Assembly (NCBI RefSeq): GCF_016859285.1
Contig: NC_053411.1
Coordinates: 17,719,722 to 17,783,721 of the forward strand
Direction: 5' to 3'
Origin: Xiphias gladius
Taxonomy: Eukaryota > Chordata > Actinopteri > Istiophoriformes > Xiphiidae
Length of the DNA: 64,000 bases
Below, one piece after another: positions 6,401 to 63,692 of the stretch (positions within the stretch are counted from its first letter, which is position 1; every line of letters starts with the position of its first letter). The notes beneath the pieces were generated by a model that saw only the letters and a list, made by a program, of their open reading frames with translations, searched no databases and was not told where the DNA came from. A program made the translations under genes and the position numbers.

Positions 6401-6680
6401 TGTGAAGATAATTTTTTCCAATTTTTTTTTGTTTCGTTGTTGTTGTAGAGAAAATCACTACAAAGAAATTATCCTAACAAGTCATTTAATCTTTTACTGA
6501 CTCCCAGAGATGTGAGACAATTTCACCTGTTTCCGAATAACAAGTTTTTCGAGAAATTTCTAGGAGCAAGTAACGTGACAATTTATTTGTTCGGGTCGTG
6601 TTTCAAGAAAGAAAATTCCTGCTTCCTGCTTTGTTTATATTCTACGTTCAATGCCTCAGTTTAGTGTTTTAACATTTGGT

Positions 6681-7018
6681 AATTAACACTAAACACAAGG
6701 TACAGCTTAGGCTGACGGGAATGTATTTAGTTTTGCAGGTATTTAGACATAAACCAAAATATTGGACAAATAAAAGTGTTCACCCGATGATGGCGCTAGA
6801 GGGAAAGTGAGAGGATCGACAAAGTTCCATCCATCTAATACTGGTTGAGACATGTAACTCAAGACCGCAACAAAGTCAACCTCATGGTGGCGCCATAGGA
6901 AAAGTCAGAGGATCACCAAGGTCTTTGGGATTCATCCTCTGGGGACAATGAACGTCTGCACGAAATTTCATGGCAATCCATCCGATAGTTGTTGCGATAT
7001 TTCAGCCTGGACCAAGCG
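6681..7018 (+). repeat. Dispersed 'GATGGCGCTAGAGG' repeat, copy B
   Basis: This copy contains two successive half-units (GATGGCGCTAGAGG near 6,789 and CATGGTGGCGCCATAGG near 6,884), each followed by a GAGGATC motif, and ends near the TTCAGCCTGGACCAA motif. It is longer than copy A. Confidence 0.75.
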
Positions 7019-10983: not shown

Positions 10984-11747
10984 CGTTGAAGCTCACACCG
11001 GTCCGGCCCCTCGTCGTATGTTTGTTCCTGACAGTTAACGAGACTAAGTCCACAGTGTGGCAGGGCACTGCCATCGTTCAAACACGGTATCTGCAGGTTT
11101 TAAGGTCTTAAAAAGCTTTGAATTCAGTTCCCTTAAGAGGCCCGAGGTGATATCGAAGTCTTAAATTTCATCTCCACTTCTGTTTTGGTTTTCTCTTCTT
11201 TTTTCTTTTTTATTTCTGCTTTTTTGTAGAGTTTCAGTCAAACACTTTCACTACAGTGGCTGGGAAGCACATCAACACATAAAGGGCAAGTGTCTGTTTT
11301 AGCTAAGGCTTAAATGAACTTATCAGGTTAATTTATCCGCCTGTTTTCTTTTCCGCTTATCTGGGTCCAGGTCACGTTGAGTTATGTAACTAGGAAGCGT
11401 TGTTGTGTAACTGGGAAGTGCTGACAAAGGTGTGATATATGTATCTAAATAAATTCATGCACTTGGTCACTTCGAGCCTTATCCTGCCCACTGGTTTATA
11501 GTCGTTCTTTGACAGGTGTCCCAGCGAAAAAAGTATTAAATTTCTATTTGGTGTTAAAGAGTCTCGAATTTAATTTGGTTCACCCTGCAGGAACCTTGTT
11601 TCAACCTTTTTAGATGCATAAATAAGACTAGGTAAAAATAAATTCTCACAATTACTAAGCTAACTTGCTGACGATGAGCAGGTAGAGCGTTTATCATCTT
11701 TACCAACTCAATTCCAGCGTGTTAGAGGTGCGTGTTAAAATTTACTA

Positions 11748-12130
11748 ATTAGCATCAAACACAAAGTAGCGCTGAGGGTGGGGATGTCATTAGTTTTGCA
11801 GCTATTGAGTCAAAAGTCCAAAGTACCGGACGAATTGAAATTCTTGACCTGATGATGGCGCTAAAGGAAAAGTTAGGGGATCCCCAGAGTTATTACACTT
11901 CGTCCTGGGGGAGAACATGAACGTCTGAACCGAATTTCAAGGTCATCCATCCAATGGTTGCCGAGACATTTCACTCAAAGCCCCAAACGTGAACCTCGTG
12001 GTGGCGCTAGAGGACAGGTCAGGGGATCCCGAGCGCCTTTAGCATTCATCCTCTGGGGACCGCGAACACGTGCACCAAACTTTGCCGCGATCCATCCCAT
12101 AGCTGTTGAGGCCTTTTAACGGCTAAGGGC
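11748..12130 (+). repeat. Dispersed 'GATGGCGCTAGAGG' repeat, copy C
   Basis: The longest copy in the window. Both half-units are present (GATGATGGCGCTAAAGG near 11,852 and GTGGTGGCGCTAGAGG near 11,998), each followed by GGGGATCCC and a CATCCTC/CGTCCTG motif. Confidence 0.78.
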
Positions 12131-28600: not shown

Positions 28601-31600
28601 AGGTCTGTGTTGGGGAGTAGAGCTGGATATCGTCCCTGATCTCCAGATTCGATTGGATCTAGGGTCACAAAGCACGGGATTGTCTTCATTCGAATCTTGA
28701 TGATTGAGTTGCATAAAGTGCTTCTCAGTTTTTCCTGGGAGCTTAAATTTCTATTACATTCAACAACCGAGCGACACTGCTGTTTCCTTGAATATAAAAT
28801 TGTGTAAAGTCAAAGCGTAGGCTAAATTGTGAACACATTTCCTGGTTATAAATCTGTGGACCAAAGATTTGTTTTCCTTAGCAAATGCAAAACAACTAAA
28901 CATGACACATTTACATTTTTTTCTTGGGTCTACATCATTGTGCATATTTTTAAAAAATAAATGCTGTCCCATTCAGTTACACGTCCACTTAAATGATCAC
29001 TTTGAGCACAGACGAGACAGAAAATGAAAGTCTGCAGACGGCTGTTAGCTAGCGTTAGCTCCTCGGCAGGGACAGACTGAATAAAGTAGAATAAAGCAGG
29101 ATCCACACACCATTCACTGGAGTTCCACGGTGTCATCATCTCATAGCCAGAGATAATAGCTCTTCAGCAAACACAAAATGAGCTCACCTAACTGTGTTTG
29201 TTTTATAGGAAAACTCCACAGGGTACATTTGAACTGAAAAGCCACATTAGGAGAGAGAAACCCTGGAAAGTTTTTATTTGAAAGCTACAGATCAGGCACT
29301 TTTTCCGTCCACTATTATTTCTTTGTCTTTGCTTTTATAGAAGAGTCCAGTCGAAGACGTCACAGCAGCGTCTCCCCCTGCTGGTGAAAGACCCAAATCC
29401 CCACCACCACCACTCGCAACCACCACTGCTGCTACTGCGCCTACTACAAATACTACTACACCCACCAGCCCCACCCTTCCTGCCGCAAAACCTGCTGCTG
29501 CTCCGTCTGCAAACTCTGACTCCGGTCCAGCATGGCTGAGCTCGCTCAAGGCTTCGACGCCCAACATAAGCACGGCCACCGCAGCATCAGGCTCCGCTTC
29601 CAGCCTCACGCCCGCCTGTGCTGCCCCGACCGCTAAAACAAACCCACAGTCTTATGCCTCAGCTGCCGGAGCTGCATCGAGTTCTCCTCCTCCTCCTGCT
29701 GCCGCCCCACACACTAAACCCTCTGTGACGGGTGGTGCTCTACCTCACTCCGTCCCGTCCTCCACCACTGTCTTCCCCCTCCTCACCCCTGTTCTACCCG
29801 CTGCTTCATCACCCCCAACTCCACCTGCCCTCTCCTCTTCTTCTCCTCCCCCTTCCTCTTCCCCTAAACTCCCCACCTCCTCTTCTTCCTCACTTCCTCC
29901 TAAATCGTCTGCCTCCCCTCCCCCTCCCTCTTCAGTACCACCTCCCACTTTCATCGCTCCCATTGCTCCCTCTCCTGTCGCTGCTCAGGGCTTCCTCCCT
30001 CCCTCCTCTCTCCCCCGTTCCTCCCCACCTGTCACCTCTCTCCCCCACTCCCCCAGTCCACCCTCCTCCTGCCCCTCCCCTATTATCCATCATGCTGATC
30101 AAGTCCAAGAGGCTTCACCAGGTCCAGGACAAACTCCAAGTAAGTAATCTGTCAGTCAGACTTAGATTTTTTTTTTTTTTTTTCTAAGATTAAAGTCAGT
30201 TTCATTTACAGCACTGTGCAAAAGTTTTAGGCTCAGAAAGTGAGGATGCTTCCAAAAATAATGTCATACAAAGCCCAGCAAAGAGAAGTAACAGGTAAAG
30301 TTTTTCAGGATCTCAGCAGGTACGTTGTTCCAGCATCTTGGAGAACCTGCCTCGGTTCTTCTGTGGATTCAGTCTCAGTGTCTCCTGTCTCTTCATGTGA
30401 TCCCAGACTGACTCCATGATGTTGAGATCTGGGCTCTGTGGGGGGCCAGACCATCTGTTGTGGGACTCCTCGTTCTTCTCGTCTCTGAAGACAGTTCTTT
30501 ATGACTCTGGCTGTGTGTTTGGGCTCGTTGTCCTGCAGCAGGATGAACGTGGGACTGATCAGACGCCTCCCTGATGCGACTGATGATGAACAAGAATCTA
30601 AATATCGAAAGAGCCTAAAACTTTTGCGCAGTACTGTTTAAGCCCAATATCACAAAACAAAGATTTGCATCAAGGGACTTTTATAATCTGTACAGCATAT
30701 AACACCCTCTGTCCTTAGACCCCTGATACCGATAAGGAAAAACTCTTAAAATTAGGAAACAAAAGTGGTCAAATTGGTGTTTCTGTTGTTGAGTAAATAC
30801 TCTCCTCCAGCTTAAATACTGGCCCGATCTGACAGAAATGGGGTGTCAGTGATGAAAATGAGGCCCGATAATTTGTAGTGTTATCATAACGGAAGACAAC
30901 TGATTCTGCATCTAGACCGGCGAATAAAAGACAAGTATGTTAGTGGCTTCTTTCATCCAGTTTGACGACTGCCACCATGTGTTCTGTGACACTTCAGATG
31001 CCACGATTGACCTTTTTTATGCCTGTATTTGATAGCTGATAGCAGAGGGGGATGAATGGGGAATGACAGGCAACAAAGGTCCACAGTGGGACGCAAACTG
31101 GGGGACAGTGCGGTTGGTGCTCCAGGCCACAGGAAGAACATTGTCAAATCTTAGATGTCATAAAACTGGACATCAAACCTCAGGCGTCAAGCATGAGGTG
31201 TCAGGTCTCAGGGATCGGACAAACTTGGCGTCAGAGTTAACGTGCCAAGAAAATACGTAGGTTTGAGCGTCTGCTTTTCAAAATAAAAGCACGTTTGACA
31301 CCTGAGACGCAGTACCTGAGGTCTGATTTCCAGCTGTAACACACCTTGGATTTGACGTTGTTTTTCCCGCGCCCTGAAGCTTTTTAGTCGGAGGATGTAC
31401 CTAAAATGTTTATCATGCCTCCTACCACCTTTGCACGTCATGAAGGGTTGTGATAGGTTGGGGTTCAGTGTATCAGACGAAAAACTGACGCCTGTGGCGG
31501 ACGAGGAAGAGCAGGTCGTCAGGTCGATTTTCACAGGGTTTGTCGGTTCGATCCCAAGCTCCTCCGGTTCGCATGTCAGAGTTTCCCCGGGCAAGACGCC

Positions 31601-35574: not shown

Positions 35575-35865
35575 TGGGACATCTCGTCGCATTTTTCTTC
35601 AAAGGAGTAGTTTTGACATTTTTGGGAAATTTTCACAATTCTGCCGAGGGTCGATCCCACTCTCGCCTGTACGGTAAATACGATCCTGCAGCTAGCAGCC
35701 AGTTAGCTTCGCTTAGCATAAAGATGAAAAACGGAGGGAAGAAACAGCCCAGGCAAGAAATAATCTGGCACAAAACCACGAATTGTCGTTATTACGCTTT
35801 AATTTTTGTACGGATTAAACAAACAGCTAGTAGCTGGTTAGCATAGTTTAGCACATCTGTTAGCA
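35575..35865 (+). repeat. 'GCTTAGCATAAAGA...GTACGGATTAAACAAAC' repeat
   Basis: AGTTAGCTTCGCTTAGCATA and TTTTTGTACGGATTAAACAA also occur, in order, in both arms of the inverted duplication at 51.8-54.3 kb. A third dispersed copy therefore sits in the otud4 3' UTR. Confidence 0.75.
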
Positions 35866-37463: not shown

Positions 37464-46927
<9,464 letters not shown>

Positions 46928-49060: not shown

Positions 49061-51434
49061 ATGGCCACCCCGAGCAAGACACCACCTGGCGCCGACCCCA
49101 AGCAGCTTGAGCGGACGGGGACGGTCCGGGAGATCGGCTCTCAGGCGGTGTGGTCCCTCTCCTCCTGTAAACCCGGTCAGACCCATACCCAGTGTGCAGT
49201 CAGCTGTGTGTATGCAGAGTAGCCAGTCTAGTCTGGTGTCAACTGGACTCTCTTTGTCCACCTATGTCCAGGTTTTGGAGTTGATCAGCTGAGGGACGAC
49301 AACCTGGAGACTTACTGGCAGTCAGATGGATCCCAACCTCACCTAGTCAACATACAGTTTAGGTAACATGAGCTTTGTTCTTTTAGTACAAGGATTTATG
49401 GATAGATATATATTTTTTAAGAAGTGTGCTTAATTCTTATTGAAACTCAAGGATAACAGGGAAATTGGCAAACAAATGCCTTTCTAGAAACAACTGCAGG
49501 ACGTGTTTTGCATCAGCTGGAAAACAACAACCAACTGAGGAGTAACATTGATTTTGTAATGGAAATAGTCTGAGTTATCAAGGAGATTTTAATGTCAGGG
49601 TCTTGGAAGATATTTGCTTCTCTTATGTGTCCTCTTTTGTGCCTTTCTGCTTCTGAATCATCTGTATGTTGGTGTCTGTGTTTATCGTCCCTGATGATTT
49701 TTATTTATTTATTTTTGTTCAGGAGGAGGACAACAGTGAAGATGCTGTGTATTTATGCTGATTATAAATCTGATGAGAGCTACACCCCCAGTAAGATTTC
49801 TGTCAGAGTGGGCAACAACTTCCACAACCTGCAAGAAATCAGGGTAACAACTGGAGAGCAGTGCTTGTCTTCATCTAAAGGCCGCCTGAAGTTCATGACA
49901 GAGTTTCATAACCACTCAAATGATCCGCTTTTTTTTTCTCACCGTTCTCTTCTTCCTCACTGTAGCAGTTGGAGATGGTGGAGCCCAGTGGCTGGATTCA
50001 CATCTCTCTGATGAACCAGGTAAGAAACTCATGTCTTTGTTTAACTTTATTCCCTTTTAAGATGAGGTGTCTCTATTAAAACACCGACAGCAGCATCGAG
50101 ACAAACTAGACGGCGACGGTCGCATAGAAATGTGCTCGGGAGATTTGACAAAATATATCATAAGATGGTGTAAAATTGTCAACTGCCAGAGATTTCGTTT
50201 GAAAACTTCAAACTTAATCCAGTGTTAACAGACAGCTGGACGTCTTTTACAACTTTGCGTGTTTGAGATATTTATTAAATCACATGTATCATCTGACTGC
50301 AATTCAAGAAATTAGGGGCTGCAAGTTTGCTGATTTATTATGATAAGACAGGTGATAACACTGGCTGGGTTTAAGAAAACTGTCGATGTTCCTCCCAGAG
50401 CTGTCATAACCAATTTCAAACTAGTGATGCGAGTATGAAAAACCACCACGTTTACACGGGGTAGTTTTATCCGGTAGAGGGGGCGACTTCAGAATGTGAA
50501 CAACCCCAACATCTCTGTTTTCACCCTCACAGTTCATGTGTTTAGTGTGATTTTTGCCTCTGCGGTAATGGCTGCATCGTTGGGGGACAAAAACGCAACG
50601 AATCAGTATATTTTATGTGGTTTTATTTTGGATTTGTAAAAACAGACATTCCCCTTTCAGTTATTTCATCCATAAACAGCTTTTCCATTGATTTTTCAGA
50701 AAATGTACTATATTCAGAGAATCAACATTCAGTATAAACGGTGATATCCATGTTGCCTGCATAGAAATAAGCAAAATTCAACCAAAAGGGGAAAAAAAAA
50801 AGGGGGGAGGTGGCTAAAGTCAGGTTTTATATCGGTTCTCCACTTTGAAACCAGCAGCTACTTCAGTTTAAGTGTGTATATCCACGAATCTTGTGATTTA
50901 TTCTTGCAAGATTTCTTTTCATGTGATTCTGGGTAACGTACCTCAGTACTTTTTTGGTACCGGCCGATGTGTATCCGTAACTCATAATATTGACAACGCA
51001 CTTATTTAAAGTGCAGAAAGCCAGCATTGAATGCTCCCTGAGATTCGTTGTCATAGTTCCTGACTTAAATCAAAACGTAGCCTGTTTTAGGCCGTTTTTA
51101 TTCAGGCAGCATTCGAGGAGTTTGGCTTTTTCTGTTTAAATCAGTTTCGTAGAAAAACGTGTTTATTTCACAGAGTAAGGCATCGGAACAAAGTGTGGCT
51201 TTCTTTGATAAAAGCGTCAAGGGCGACTTAACTGTGGGTTTCTCCGTGTTTCAGCGGACCAACGAGCCGATCAGCACCTTCATGATCCAGATCGCGGTGT
51301 TGGCCAACCACCAGAACGGCAGAGACACTCACATGCGGCAGATTAAAGTCTACACGCCGGTGGAGGAGAGCTCCATCGGCAAGTTCCCGCGTTGCACCAC
51401 AGTCGACTTCATGATGTACCGCACAATCAGGTGA
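49061..51434 (+). CDS. anapc10: Anaphase-promoting complex subunit 10 (APC10/DOC1), complete
   Basis: Coding exons 49061-49175, 49272-49362, 49723-49843, 49966-50019 and 51255-51434 (TGA) are in phase, giving 561 nt and 186 aa against 185 in human as I recall. The protein is almost entirely the DOC domain, a jelly-roll fold that binds substrate D-boxes with the CDC20/CDH1 coactivator. Strong family stretches are visible: [78 protein letters not shown] and the C-terminal Ile-Arg tail (YRTIR) that docks on APC3/CDC27. The exon at 49,966 is taken after TGTAG so that Gln starts it; the next AG, three bases on, would drop one residue. The loop around residues 125-135 differs from human and is one residue longer. 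It runs away from abce1, as in other vertebrates. Confidence 0.96.
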
Positions 51435-51843
51435 TCGGGACTGACATGAGAACACCTGACCCTCTGTGGCCCCGGGGAAACGTTGGGAATTGCACAAAAT
51501 GCCCAGAAAGGGGGAAAAATGACACAGACTGATATCTGGAGCTGCTGCTGCTGCTGCACATCGATTAAAAATCAGATTTGGTCGATTCAGACATGATGCA
51601 GATTGATTGATTTTTTTCTATTTTGAACCCAGAACCGATCAGTCTTGCACTCGTTGTCATTAAGGTTTGGTCAAATGTGACTTCTTAAAGATACAGTACT
51701 GCTCTTTTAAATCAAAGCTGCCAATATTTCATACATTTAAATTTGACTGTAACAAGAGTTCAATGTTTTTCTCTGCAATTTTTTTTTTCTCAGAATGGAA
51801 AAGCCTCTGTACACGGTCAAATCCCTCCACAACACGATCAGCA

Positions 51844-52209
51844 TGTTGTTTTCACACTCTAGTTTTCGTACGGATTAAACAAACCAGATGTGACGTGTTA
51901 ATCAGTGAGCTTTAGAGCTGCTGGTAGGTGGATTGTGTTACCTTTACATAGAGCCAGGCTAGCTGTTTCCCCCCCGTTTCCAGTCTTTATGCTAAGCTAA
52001 GCTAACTGCCCGCTGGCCGTGGCTTCATATTTACCCTACAGATGTGAGAGTAGTGTCGATCTTCTCATCTAACTCTGCAAGAAAAGCACATAAGTGCATT
52101 TACTAAAATGATTTTGGCCTGAAAATTACTTAATGGATTAACTGCAAATGAGAAGACCATGAGTTTTGGTTAAAAGCTCTGGAAACTGTCAGACAATGGA
52201 CCTTGATTT

Positions 52210-52270
<61 letters not shown>

Positions 52271-54282
52271 AGCTTTAATGTTTCATGATGGTTTAAAAGC
52301 TGTTTTCATTGTAACAAGGAGAAAGTTCAGGAAGAAACACTGAATATTTGTGTTTTTTGGCATGAAAACAGTCAAATTTAAAGATATTAAATATGGCACA
52401 TCAACCCTACACAGTGACAGTTTTTATGTCGTGATGTCTGAAGAGTTTAGCTCCATGAAGAAATTTGGCAGCACTTGGGGAGAAAAACGAGCTCCTCCTA
52501 CAATAATGTGGCGGTTTGTATGAAAGTAAAACACGTTATTGTTAACTGCTAAAGTTTGGTTCTGTTTCGATGCTTGGGTTTCAAATTTTGATCGAATCTC
52601 AGGTGGGAAAGTGGATTCAAAGGTTTTTTTGGGAATAAAATTCAGAAAAAACTCAGTTCCAGAGACGCATGTTTTACTATTGTAGGTGAGATTTAACCTG
52701 CAGGACGACCAAAAATATGCCAAGATAAACCCGGCAGTCATTCATTTACCGGTCAACATTTTCTAAAGCAACAGATTTCCCCCATAGACTGGATCCAGCT
52801 GCACGTGACCAGTAAAAATTGAAAACCTTTTCACTTTACGAGGTTTTGTTCGGTATCAGAAACTCAAAAGTTCAAAACCCCAAACTGCTGTGCCTGCAGG
52901 CCGTCTTCATCGGCTGCCAGAATCTGACCGAGTTAATGTATAAAACAAAAGAAAACGTTAGCAGAGAAGAAAGCGTAAAAGACGAGACACGAGCAGCGAA
53001 AGAGACTCGGGTTCCTACTAAACAAAAGGTGATGTCATGCGTTTGACAGGTGGCGATAGGGAGCACGTGAAGGCAGGTGAACTGTTACGATGCCGTTAGT
53101 ACACATCCAGGTGTGGACATGCTGGGCGAACCACCAAAATGAGCCGATTTGCGGGGTAATTGAACATGCCTCCCAGGAGTCTCCACAGTATTCGAGGAGA
53201 CTGTAGATTTCCTTTAAAGGGCCTTTTATACAGGTTCCAGGGAAATGAGAGGCAGACTCCCAGGACCCGCTGGGCTCTTAAGGTATGTTCCATGAGTTTC
53301 AATCTTTTGTGTGTGTTCATTGAAGTCGCTTTAGGAACCAATAATTTCCAATGTACTTATTGACATGTGAGTATGGTTTTACGCCAGACTTGACGGTATG
53401 TGAATCTGTCCTAGGTTCTATCCTCAAGGTTAAGGAGGTTTCACACGTTACACACATTAAAAAAAAAAAAAAAAAAAGTTTTTTGGAAACACTAACAGTT
53501 AAATGTCACACTGAAACCTGTTATATCTGTATGCTAAATATGAAGCTACAGCCCATATGTCCTGTATTTAATATCTTTTTAAGTTTGACTGTTTTCATGC
53601 CAAAAACACAAATATTCAGTGTTTTATTCCTGTTACAATGAAAACAGCTTGTAAACCATCATGAGACATTAAAGTTCTCATTTAAAAAAAAAAAAAAAAA
53701 AAAAAAAAATCAAGGTCCATTGTCTGACAGTTTCCAGGGCTTTTAACCACATCTCATGGTCTTCTCATTTGCAGTTAATCCATTATTTTGTCAGAATATT
53801 CTGTATTTCTTTGTCTAATGTGATAGTTAACTGAATGTTTGAGTTGCGCAAATCAGTTTAATGATGTGAGTTTCACTTTTCACTTTCCATTATCTTCTTG
53901 AGAATTAAAAAAACAAAACAAAAGTCATGAGAAATAATTGGCAGTTGCATCTCTGACCCGAGAAAACTCCATCCAGTGATGAAAACTATGAGATGTGGAT
54001 CCAGAAAAAGCCAGTAAGTGGACCTTGATATAAGGAGAGACAGACATTTTAGGAAATGCACTTATGTGCTTTTCTTGCAGAGTTAGATGAGAAGATCGAC
54101 ACTACTCTCACATCTGAAGGGTAAATATGAAGCCACGGCCAGCGGGCAGTTAGCTTAGCTTAGCATAAAGACTGGAAACGGGGGGGAACAGCTAGCCTGG
54201 CTCTATCCACCTACCAGCAGCTCTAAAGCTCACCGATTAACACGTCACATCTGGTTTGTTTAATCCGTACGAAAACTAGAGT
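51844..54282. repeat. Long inverted duplication, arms about 550 and 730 bp
   Basis: The left arm 51,844-52,395 reads as the reverse complement of the right arm 53,556-54,282. Sample windows compared by eye differ by only one to a few bases in about 80, for example around AGTGTCGATCTTCTCATC (left) and its partner near 54,090. The left arm has about 19 extra bases near 51,935, and the right arm has roughly 240 extra bases near 53,780-54,040. The spacer is about 1.16 kb (52,396-53,555). Part of the arm is a dispersed repeat that also occurs at 35.6-35.9 kb. Confidence 0.9.
52207..52268. repeat. Poly(T) plus (TG)n tract
   Basis: About 25 T residues are followed by about 18 TG units. The matching place in the other inverted arm (53,683-53,709) is a plain poly(A) run, so the TG part arose or was lost after duplication. 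Confidence 0.93.
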
Positions 54283-54731
54283 GTGAAAACGACAAACAAT
54301 TCCTCGGCCGGGACCAGTGACTTCCTTCCCCCAGAAATGTTGAACTATTCCTTTTAAAGTGAATTGAATCGACTATTGGTTGTATTAAAAAGTGAACAGT
54401 GATAAGTGACTGTCAGGCTGGATCAGAAAGCACAACTCAGATTACTGCAGGTCGGCATGTGAACCACTAGAGGGAGCCAGGTGGACGTGGCTGGAGAGGG
54501 ATGGATATTCTCATCAACAGAGAAAAAGTTTCACAGCAGAATCACAGGTCTCGATGGTCTCGGTTGCCGTGGTAACTGAGACTACAGCAGCCAATAGGCG
54601 CTGCTCTTAGCTGAAGTACATTGATCTGACAGAGTGTGTGTGTGTGTGTGTGTCTCACACAGTAAACACATTTAATCTGGATTACACTCCACTTCTCCGC
54701 ACTTCAATTCAGAAAATTCAATTTGGCTGCA

Positions 54732-54970
54732 AACACACACACACACACACACCTTCTGTGCTTCTGAGGACCATCATTCACATTATGCATTCAGCCCCTA
54801 ACCTGCACCATCACGGCTAAACGCCCAACCCCAAACCTGATCGTAACCTGAACCCTAAAACCAAATCTGAACCTTCAAACGGCCTGAATGTGCAGTAATT
54901 TCCTCACTAAGACGGTTTTAAACTGAAGCTGGTTCTCACAAAGATAGCAGTACAAGCCCACTCTCACATT
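54732..54970 (+). repeat. CA tract plus 'CTGAGGACCATCATTCAC' repeat
   Basis: Same family as 1,672-1,890. A (CA)n start, then ACCTGCACCATCACGGCTAA and CCTGAACCCTAAAACC, and an end reading TTCTCACAAAGATAGCAGTA. Confidence 0.75.
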
Positions 54971-55384
54971 GGTAAATTATACAGAAATACACACACGCGC
55001 ACACAGATTGATACTAATAGAAAAATAAGCATTCACACAAAAACATAATTTTATGCTGGCAAGTGTATTTGCGCTCTCGCTTACACACACACACACACAT
55101 TAATGAGTCTCAGCCTGATGTTTTGATGTGGTGTTTTACTGTCTGCTACTTAAGCTGAGAGCTTTTTCCTGCCTTTACAAGGTATTTTAATCACCTGCGC
55201 ACATAACCGCCGCAGCCCGCACCACCATTGGTATTCATGGCTGCTCTTTGGGTACGACGGCCGTGTTTTCGTTTAACCTACAGGGGTGGGGCCAGAGGGG
55301 GGTGGCCCGGGTTGGCACAGGTCCCCCTGGAGTCCGTCTGGTCAGCGCCGGTGCCAACCTCCGTATGAAGTGACTGCTAATTTA

Positions 55385-55690
55385 TTCCTGTTGGAAGGTC
55401 AATCGAGCGGCTACAAGCAAATGCAAAATAAGATGAAAAATGACTAAAAAGTGATGCGAAGTGGTAGATAAGAGACGCAAAGAGACAGCAGACGCGAAAC
55501 GACAAATAAGAGACGCAAAATCACTATGCAGACACCCAAAAGACATTGCATCACTACCAATGTACACAAAATGACCACGAAAGGGACACAGACTGATGCC
55601 AGGGACTAAACCGAGACCTGAAACGACAAATACACAGACACAAAACGACCACGAAAAGAGGCAAAATAGCCAAAAGGGACACACAAATAT
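55385..55690 (+). repeat. Degenerate tandem repeat of 'GACACAAAACGACCACGAAA'
   Basis: Many imperfect units built from AAATGACCACGAAAGGGACA, AAACGACAAATAAGAGACGC and similar words. Both long frames across it are repeat artefacts. Confidence 0.7.
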
Positions 55691-61649: not shown

Positions 61650-63692
61650 TCAATCCGTCTCTATCTTCTTGTCGTCCAGGTCAAAGTCCAACACCAGCAG
61701 CTTGGTTTCCTCCGTCCCGTTCCGGCTGCCGGCGGCGCACACCAGCCGAGTGTCGGACGCTCTGATTCGCCACACCACGCCACCTGCGGAGAAGGGAAGG
61801 CGTGCGATTGGTTTAGACTCAGATAACAGGTGAGTGCGCAGTGTGGGAGTAATTAGGGGCGAGTTCTGATAGCGGCTTCCATTTTGGATCCGAGCTGCTC
61901 AAATCCGTTTAGTCTCTCTTGCCTCTTGCTGACACCGCAGGCGTCCGAAGTAAAAAGATTTAGTGAATGTCTGGCAAACTTAACAAGTTTTAATTAAATT
62001 TATAGTGAAATATAAATGTCTGATTTTAAATTTACGTTGTTTTTTTTCTTTACCTGAGATACATTCGCTTAAAAGAAGGAATTACGTCCTGGATATGTAA
62101 AATGTAACCTTTCACCTGCGACATGTTCCCTGTTGATGGGCTTTAGGCATTTCTCTCATTACAACACTGTTCGAACGGGCCAGAACCCTGCTGCAGCGTC
62201 CTCACCTGATCCCCGGCTCTGCAGCGCCACCACGTCCCTCAGCCAGGCGCCGGTCTTCAGGTCCCACAGTTTGACCGTCCCGTCGTCGGAGCTGGACAGG
62301 ACCAGACCTCGGCAGAACTGCAGGCACGTCACCGCCGACTGGTGCTTGTTAGGACCTGCGGCAGACGTCGTCATGAAATCTGGTTCACACATTCAGGTTC
62401 CCCTCAGGGTGAATCCTAACGTCCCTGGATCCTCTGACTTTTCATCTAGCGCCACCATCAGGTCAAAATTTCAACTTGTTTATGGCCAAATAACTAAACA
62501 ACTAACAACATTCCTCTCAGCTTCAGCTCTAGTTTCTGGTTGATGTTTTAAGCTGTGAACCTTTTGAATGATTTGCCCGTTTCTTGACATACACCATAGC
62601 TGGTTCTCTCTAACGTCATCTTTCAGGCTTTTACATGTCGTAATCTTAAGAGGTTTTATTCCACATTTATAGCCTGTTACAGGTGCATGAACTATGGTTG
62701 ACTTGTTGCTTACGACCCGATCGGTTGTGGTTTTTTTACTCGGTGGCTTGACGTGCTTTCTTATGCTGTCTGGTTTGTTACCTTCTACTTATTTGTCCTT
62801 CCCTCCCCCCCAGAGGACTGCAGCTGTTTGTGTCGGTGCATTTTAGTGCAGCGTCAACAACGGCATGGACGCAGTGACTCTCACCGGTTTCCCGGACAGA
62901 TAGAAACCTTCGCTATCGCTCGCTCACCTTGCAGCGTGTGGAGACACTGTCCCATCCGGACGTCCCACACCCGGACCGTAGAGTCGGCGTTGCCGGACAC
63001 CAGGATGTTGTCTCGCAGCTCCATGCCGCTGGTCAGAGATTGGTGGCCGGTCAACGTGTGGACACACCCACCTGGACGAGACATGAGCAGAGTCATTTTA
63101 TCAGAATAATTGAAGAGATGCTACAATAAAAAAACAAATCTAAACTGAGTCTGTGTTTGACCAAGGCTCTTACTGGAAGTCTCCGTTAAAACTGGTGCAG
63201 TCACAGAGCACCAAAGTCAGAAGTTTTAATTTCATTAAAAGCGAATGAAATTTGGTTTATTTTAAGTTCAAGGAATTTATGTTTTCACTGAACGTAAAGT
63301 CACTCGAATTAACTTTAATATAATTAACAGAAAATCTTATTAAATATAAGGTATTGTAAAATAGATCCATTTCTTTAAAATTGTGGCTGTAATGGTTTAT
63401 TTTATATTTGTTCTATTTTTATTCTCTTTCTAATGACATTCAGAGTAAATATTCAGCCGAGTTCCTTTAAATTGGTTTGAAATGCACCCGGGTTAACAGA
63501 TCCGCCATGTCCCTCATTGACATAAATATCAGAAACTCCTCAACAACGTGACAAACTACAGCTTCCAAAATGGCATTTAAACGTTTAAAAAATTTGAATG
63601 AAATTAATTTCATTCATGTCTGTACCTGTCTCTGCGTCCCAGACTCTGATTGAAGTGTCCAATGAGCCGCTCACCACGAAGACACCATCAAA
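61650..63692 (-). CDS. fbxw7: FBXW7-type F-box/WD40 protein, last four coding exons (5' partial)
   Basis: Exons in transcript order: 63626-63692, 62928-63071, 62206-62355, 61650-61783 (TGA at 61,650-61,652), 495 nt in phase, 164 aa plus stop. The sequence covers the last WD40 blades: [16 protein letters not shown], then [20 protein letters not shown] with [20 protein letters not shown], then [11 protein letters not shown] with [16 protein letters not shown], then [10 protein letters not shown] and the closing strand [13 protein letters not shown]. This is the C-terminal half of the SCF receptor that binds phosphodegrons in cyclin E, MYC and NOTCH. The F-box and the blades carrying the main degron-contact arginines lie beyond the right edge. 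After LDFD the protein continues LDDKKIETD, whereas human as I recall ends sooner (VDMK), and [15 protein letters not shown] also departs from human. It could be a fish paralogue of fbxw7. Confidence 0.88.
62371..62545 (-). repeat. Reverse copy of the 'GATGGCGCTAGAGG' family in an fbxw7 intron
   Basis: ATGAAATCTGGTTCACACATT, TCATCTAGCGCCACCATCAG and TCTCAGCTTCAGCTCTAG are reverse complements of family motifs. It begins about 16 bases outside the fbxw7 exon at 62,355, so it lies right at the acceptor side of the intron. Confidence 0.75.

Follow-up and report, generated by a model that had tools for sequence, protein, structure and literature searches.

A local inverted duplication carrying part of a foldback MITE beside anapc10 in Xiphias gladius

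Foldback transposons of the Tetris type reportedly have long inverted arms with a spacer between them. Template switching can likewise leave a reverse-complement copy of a sequence nearby: the gold-standard great-ape events of PMC7954356 have a median of 12 nt and a maximum of 128 nt, and human inverted CNVs, in the cases quoted in PMC10766186, run from a few kb upward. T2-MITEs and Kolobok elements, in the description given in PMC6004289, have a TTAA target and an AGGRR end.

The locus considered here lies in a 64,000-nt stretch of the Xiphias gladius genome (the window; RefSeq GCF_016859285.1, NC_053411.1, positions 17,719,722 to 17,783,721). Just beyond anapc10, a gene of cell division, the sequence-only reading of the window had described two long inverted arms, and alignment confirms them: 51844 to about 52402 and about 53558 to 54294 are reverse complements of each other, in gapped blocks. 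The coordinates first given were accurate to about 12 nt (54294 rather than 54282 for the end of the right arm), and the spacer of about 1.16 kb agrees with the earlier figure. In window coordinates, the locus comprises the following features.

51255-51434, plus strand: last coding exon of anapc10, with its stop codon (translation; Pfam PF03256 ANAPC10); the exon start is placed from the reading frame and the AG before it.
51844-52402, plus strand: left arm, putatively copied from the right arm with inversion and an internal deletion (arm alignment).
51844-52110, minus strand: truncated MITE arm within the left arm, opposed in direction to the right copy (dispersed matches).
52111-52130, no strand: 20-nt filler, where the right arm has about 259 nt (alignment).
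52131-52402, plus strand: inner portion of the left arm, present as two local copies, with short dispersed pieces by the inner end.
52231-52268, no strand: (TG)19 microsatellite, in the left arm only.
52403-53557, no strand: spacer (only short matches elsewhere in the genome).
53518-53553, plus strand: short MITE-family fragment (self-comparison), where several of the short spacer matches fall.
53558-54294, plus strand: right arm, the likely source of the duplication (arm alignment; polarity from MITE continuity).
53709-53764, plus strand, partner 53981-54029: inverted pair inside the right arm, of older date (70% identity across 56 nt; a search restricted to these two short stretches, chosen by eye, gave E=2.6e-5).
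54031-54357, plus strand: right MITE copy, which retains one arm, part of the loop and, at 54342-54356, the terminus GAACTATTCCTTTTA; the second arm is mostly missing, and the inner end is approximate, coming from weak matches (E 0.06 and 0.43).

Translation places the end of anapc10 at 51434 (PF03256 at E=5.6e-16, profile positions 129-184 of 185). The left arm, which starts inside the MITE, is separated from the stop codon by 409 nt. The arms align in five main inverted blocks.

51844-51933 with 54205-54294: 98% identity.
51967-52110 with 54045-54188: 99% identity.
52131-52231 with 53685-53785: 97% identity.
52267-52324 with 53623-53680: 90% identity.
52354-52387 with 53573-53606: 91% identity.

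Clean aligned blocks hold 14 mismatches in 466 sites: 4/250 (outer), 3/101 (middle), and 7/115 (inner). Excluded from this count are the 20-nt filler, the edge of the (TG)19 tract, and the final nucleotides at the inner end. With the ragged parts counted, the figure is 23/497. The outer 250 aligned nucleotides are 98.4% identical without gaps and 92% with gaps. The earlier statement that the arms show very few differences thus holds for aligned bases, but it omitted the indels. Sixteen nucleotides present in the left arm are absent from the right, and the dispersed copies inspected keep them in some form; 20 nt in the left arm take the place of about 259 nt at 53786-54044 in the right; (TG)19 is confined to the left arm; and there are further, smaller gaps. 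Three inter-arm BLAST pieces have E values of 7.5e-100, 1.4e-42, and 5e-27. The remaining self-matches of the window (E <= 1e-6, low-complexity filter on) have E values of at least 1.4e-17, and none longer than 60 nt exceeds 82.5% identity. Because the arm matches lie so far beyond these, the inverted repeat is not due to chance.

The outer 250-267 nt of either arm is part of a dispersed repeat. An arm query against the 690-Mb genome gave 3964 first-look candidates, of which the best 40 were scored; this search skipped very common words, so that weak old copies may be missed. Among the 51 matches listed, three are the window's own; identity in the other 48 is 73-82%, or 77-82% for the long ones. 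Twenty loci around top-scoring dispersed matches were taken for local comparison. At 15 of the 20 the repeat is present in both orientations, although in single cases these may be adjacent separate copies, and in the dispersed loci looked at, the end corresponding to the window's outer arm end faces the middle of the pair. From this arrangement, the repeat within the arms is read as a foldback MITE whose own arms are opposed in direction to the structure in the window.

The ends of the repeat tend to TTAA and then AGGAA. Exact YYCCTTTAA is present in 6 of 27 arm ends (in one, L023, past the expected end), and TTCCTTTAA with at most one mismatch in 11, leaving 16 without it; 27 random stretches of the same loci would be expected to yield 0.2 exact and 0.5 near matches. 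The right MITE copy in the window has TTAA at one end only. By this likeness to the TTAA target and AGGRR end of T2-MITEs and Kolobok elements, the repeat is T2/Kolobok-like at its ends. A literature search with the core letters of the repeat did not find a published name for it. The left-arm MITE part (51844-52110) folds no better by itself than shuffled sequence (z 0.96; 169/200 shuffles as good or better).

Several other repeats occur in the window. The same MITE family recurs at 35659-35824, in both orientations (77-78% identity in pieces of 83-93 nt, and 83-85% over 41 nt). Another dispersed family is represented at 2583-2735, 6666-7013, 11732-12108, 39185-39264, and 62372-62474, by pieces 75-83% identical to one another. 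An inverted pair, 30387-30744 and 40959-41206, has pieces 79-85% identical and lies about 10 kb apart. Within the right arm, 53951-54034 has 13 short dispersed matches and 53793-53836 has one.

How did two such similar arms arise? Relatives of the arms are common in the genome, as the number of first-look candidates attests, and two copies of one MITE that inserted independently, in opposite orientations, would account for inverted outer arms. Three lines of evidence make this reading scarcely credible. The first is identity. Dispersed arms are 53.3-79.8% identical pairwise (300 pairs among 25 arms from 20 loci, after matches spanning less than 150 nt were dropped; padding to full length lowers these identities), and BLAST-limited dispersed matches of at least 150 nt are 69.2-82.3% identical to the left arm (n=25, 20 loci), as against 98.4% between the two arms. 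(A 52-nt piece of the dispersed copy L026 reaches 90.4% identity to the left arm.) The comparison is conservative, since the dispersed copies are the best-scoring ones. The next is shared history: in 204 scored columns (at least 12 dispersed arms present and 70% agreeing), the two arms depart jointly from the family at 21, the left alone at none, and the right alone at two. Finally, arm homology runs about 270 nt beyond the MITE, into sequence without another long copy in the genome search: a search with 52111-52402 returned four matches, of which one is the query, one is the opposite arm, and the remaining two are 33 and about 52 nt long. A further inner-arm piece, 42 nt at 88%, was found by local search in one dispersed locus (L009) and is unlisted by the genome search, so the innermost arm end may include a remnant of a different old repeat. 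Independent insertion is effectively refuted, unless conversion homogenised MITE and flank alike. The arms are a single local duplication, and the check proposed with the sequence-only reading, a comparison of arm identity with that of other copies of the repeat, bears out its term inverted duplication; its further description, recent, is a relative one for about 3% divergence.

The same reading had offered a foldback-type element as an alternative. Applied to the entire 2.45-kb structure, this would mean a transposable element whose long inverted ends enclose a 1.16-kb centre. Two long inverted arms do flank a spacer, and a dispersed repeat does form the outer part of each arm. However, in the genome search no other match to the inner arm or the spacer exceeds 70 nt (spacer query 52396-53570: nine matches, itself and eight of 31-70 nt), and further copies of the 51844-54294 unit were not found by that search, in which very common words were skipped. 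The outer edges of the structure seem to fall within a MITE rather than at a terminus, and the spacer ORFs reach at most 105 aa. No target-site duplication was found at the edges of 51844-54294: the longest direct repeat within 6 nt is 4 nt, and 204 of 500 random edge pairs have one of 4 nt or longer. With an inner arm and spacer for which that search shows only short matches elsewhere, and edges that carry no direct repeat of at least 5 nt, a whole-unit transposon is disfavoured, and we regard it as very unlikely. What survives of the foldback idea concerns the dispersed repeat inside the arms, found in both orientations at 15/20 loci. Gene conversion between the arms of an older inverted repeat could also have kept them alike. 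Divergence is indeed uneven (outer 1.6%, 4/250, versus 4.8%, 9/186, in the inner blocks), and the higher inner-block divergence could hint at conversion, or at uneven mutation; yet the gradient is not significant (Fisher p = 0.08), and each arm retains private indels, so this reading is unlikely. A false inverted duplication assembled from chimeric or hairpin reads is most improbable, because the arms carry different indels and (TG)19: they differ by substitutions, by the 16-nt deletion, and by the 259/20-nt replacement.

If the arms are one duplication, which is the source? Outside the right arm, loop-like letters continue at 54295-54326, followed by the terminus at 54342-54356. This tail has matches at E <= 0.06 in 12 of the 20 loci, mostly to the terminus; in a shuffled-tail control, 5 of 50 had some hit at E <= 0.1. 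Compared with 24 dispersed flanks, the flank outside the right arm resembles the MITE (summed score 513 versus 366 +/- 14; none of 200 shuffles reaches it), but the flank outside the left arm does not (395 versus 392 +/- 14; 92/200 shuffles reach it). A weak likeness of the left flank to a MITE loop (L021, E 0.07) was not borne out by this shuffle-controlled scoring. Within 51401-54600, a MITE-like terminus (at most three mismatches) occurs only at 54342. Queried against the genome (common words skipped), 54290-54760, in which the tail is short and diverged, matched nothing but itself, so the reading of the right tail as MITE rests on local comparisons with the 20 loci. On these comparisons, the MITE appears to run past the right arm to about 54357, and the left copy appears to be cut at 51844. 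This one line of evidence, a MITE that continues past the right arm but is cut in the left, suggests that the right arm is likely the source.

The proposal that we consider probable is a single local copy-invert-paste of 53558-54294, by template switching or templated repair, probably without selected function. One event would have copied about 740 bp that include the greater part of an arm from a degenerate T2/Kolobok-like MITE, together with older flanking repeat pieces. The copy would have been inserted in inverted orientation about 1.16 kb away, about 410 bp past the anapc10 stop codon. The process would have been either replication-based template switching (of the MMBIR/FoSTeS type) or templated insertion during the repair of a break. 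These are favoured because no long homology is seen at the junctions, and they are the most likely mechanism. Matching at each junction edge extends over 3-4 nt, by eye and without a control, and later mutations blur the edges; with no direct repeat of at least 5 nt at the edges, such matches suggest neither homologous recombination nor transposition of the unit. The MITE-family fragment at 53518-53553, 36 nt long, reaches to within about 5 nt of the right arm's inner end, and one junction of the duplication thus adjoins a MITE fragment. Subsequently the arms would have diverged through about 3% substitutions, the loss of 16 nt on the right, and TG expansion on the left. Replacement of 259 nt by 20 nt in the left arm could date from the original event or from a later time. 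(A candidate template for the 20-nt filler around 52355, with 13-mers matching at one mismatch, is not significant, being equalled by 22 of 300 shuffles.)

The corrected distance between the arms is 3.1%. At assumed substitution rates of 2.5e-9 to 1e-8 per site per year, the duplication would be about 1.5-6 million years old, an estimate that is too young if the arms have been converted.

Could the duplication affect anapc10? The signal ATTAAA occurs at 51564 (130 nt past the stop codon and before the left arm), and again at 51874 and 52386 (inside the left arm); AATAAA occurs at 52634. The 3' end of anapc10 could therefore fall before, within, or after the left arm. A predicted RNA fold of 51435-54400 contains 474 inter-arm pairs, which follow from the inverted repeat itself, and double-stranded RNA over the arms is physically possible. 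This predicted pairing, and an arm that starts about 410 nt past the stop, would suit a 3'-UTR double-stranded structure that controls anapc10 through ADAR editing or nuclear retention. Such a structure is nevertheless highly doubtful: an ATTAAA precedes the left arm, and the pairing is expected from the inverted repeat alone. A structured RNA of a known family was also considered and rejected, as Rfam gave no match at gathering score in 51000-55500. More elaborate still, and most improbable, is a sequence of events in which a foldback-MITE hairpin would stall replication, yielding a fairly recent inverted copy that in turn would provide an alternative anapc10 3' end and ADAR-edited double-stranded RNA. 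No evidence of function was found in these analyses, and we infer that the duplication probably has no selected function. Separately, at 51780-51915 a pyrimidine-rich tract ends in CAG, and the open frame after it extends into the left arm (ORF 51667-51915, 82 aa); this may be chance, or a candidate alternative 3' exon of anapc10.

A single local copy-invert-paste would make this locus a roughly dateable case of old mobile-element DNA duplicated in reverse beside a gene without transposition. If anapc10 transcripts read into the arms, they would provide a natural double-stranded RNA substrate; otherwise, the duplication is background structural variation, real but ordinary.

The comparison with described systems separates the duplication from the repeat that it carries. 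Tetris-type foldback transposons share with this locus the inverted arms and the spacer; unlike them, the unit here was not seen elsewhere in the genome search, and its ends do not lie at element termini. The carried repeat, like the T2-MITE and Kolobok elements described in PMC6004289, tends to TTAA and then AGGAA, a likeness that concerns this repeat only and not the whole duplication. Similarly, the Angel MITE of zebrafish, by its description in PMC12628747, is a short teleost element with within-strand pairing, as the arm repeat is, and again the comparison concerns the inner repeat only. For the event itself, as reconstructed from sequence alone, the closest counterparts are the template-switch inverted duplications described in PMC7954356 and PMC10766186, which resemble it in three respects: a reverse-complement copy nearby; little homology at the junctions; and a hairpin-prone repeat. 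The duplication here is longer than the great-ape events of PMC7954356 and smaller than the human inverted CNVs quoted in PMC10766186, and it is a known kind of structural mutation.
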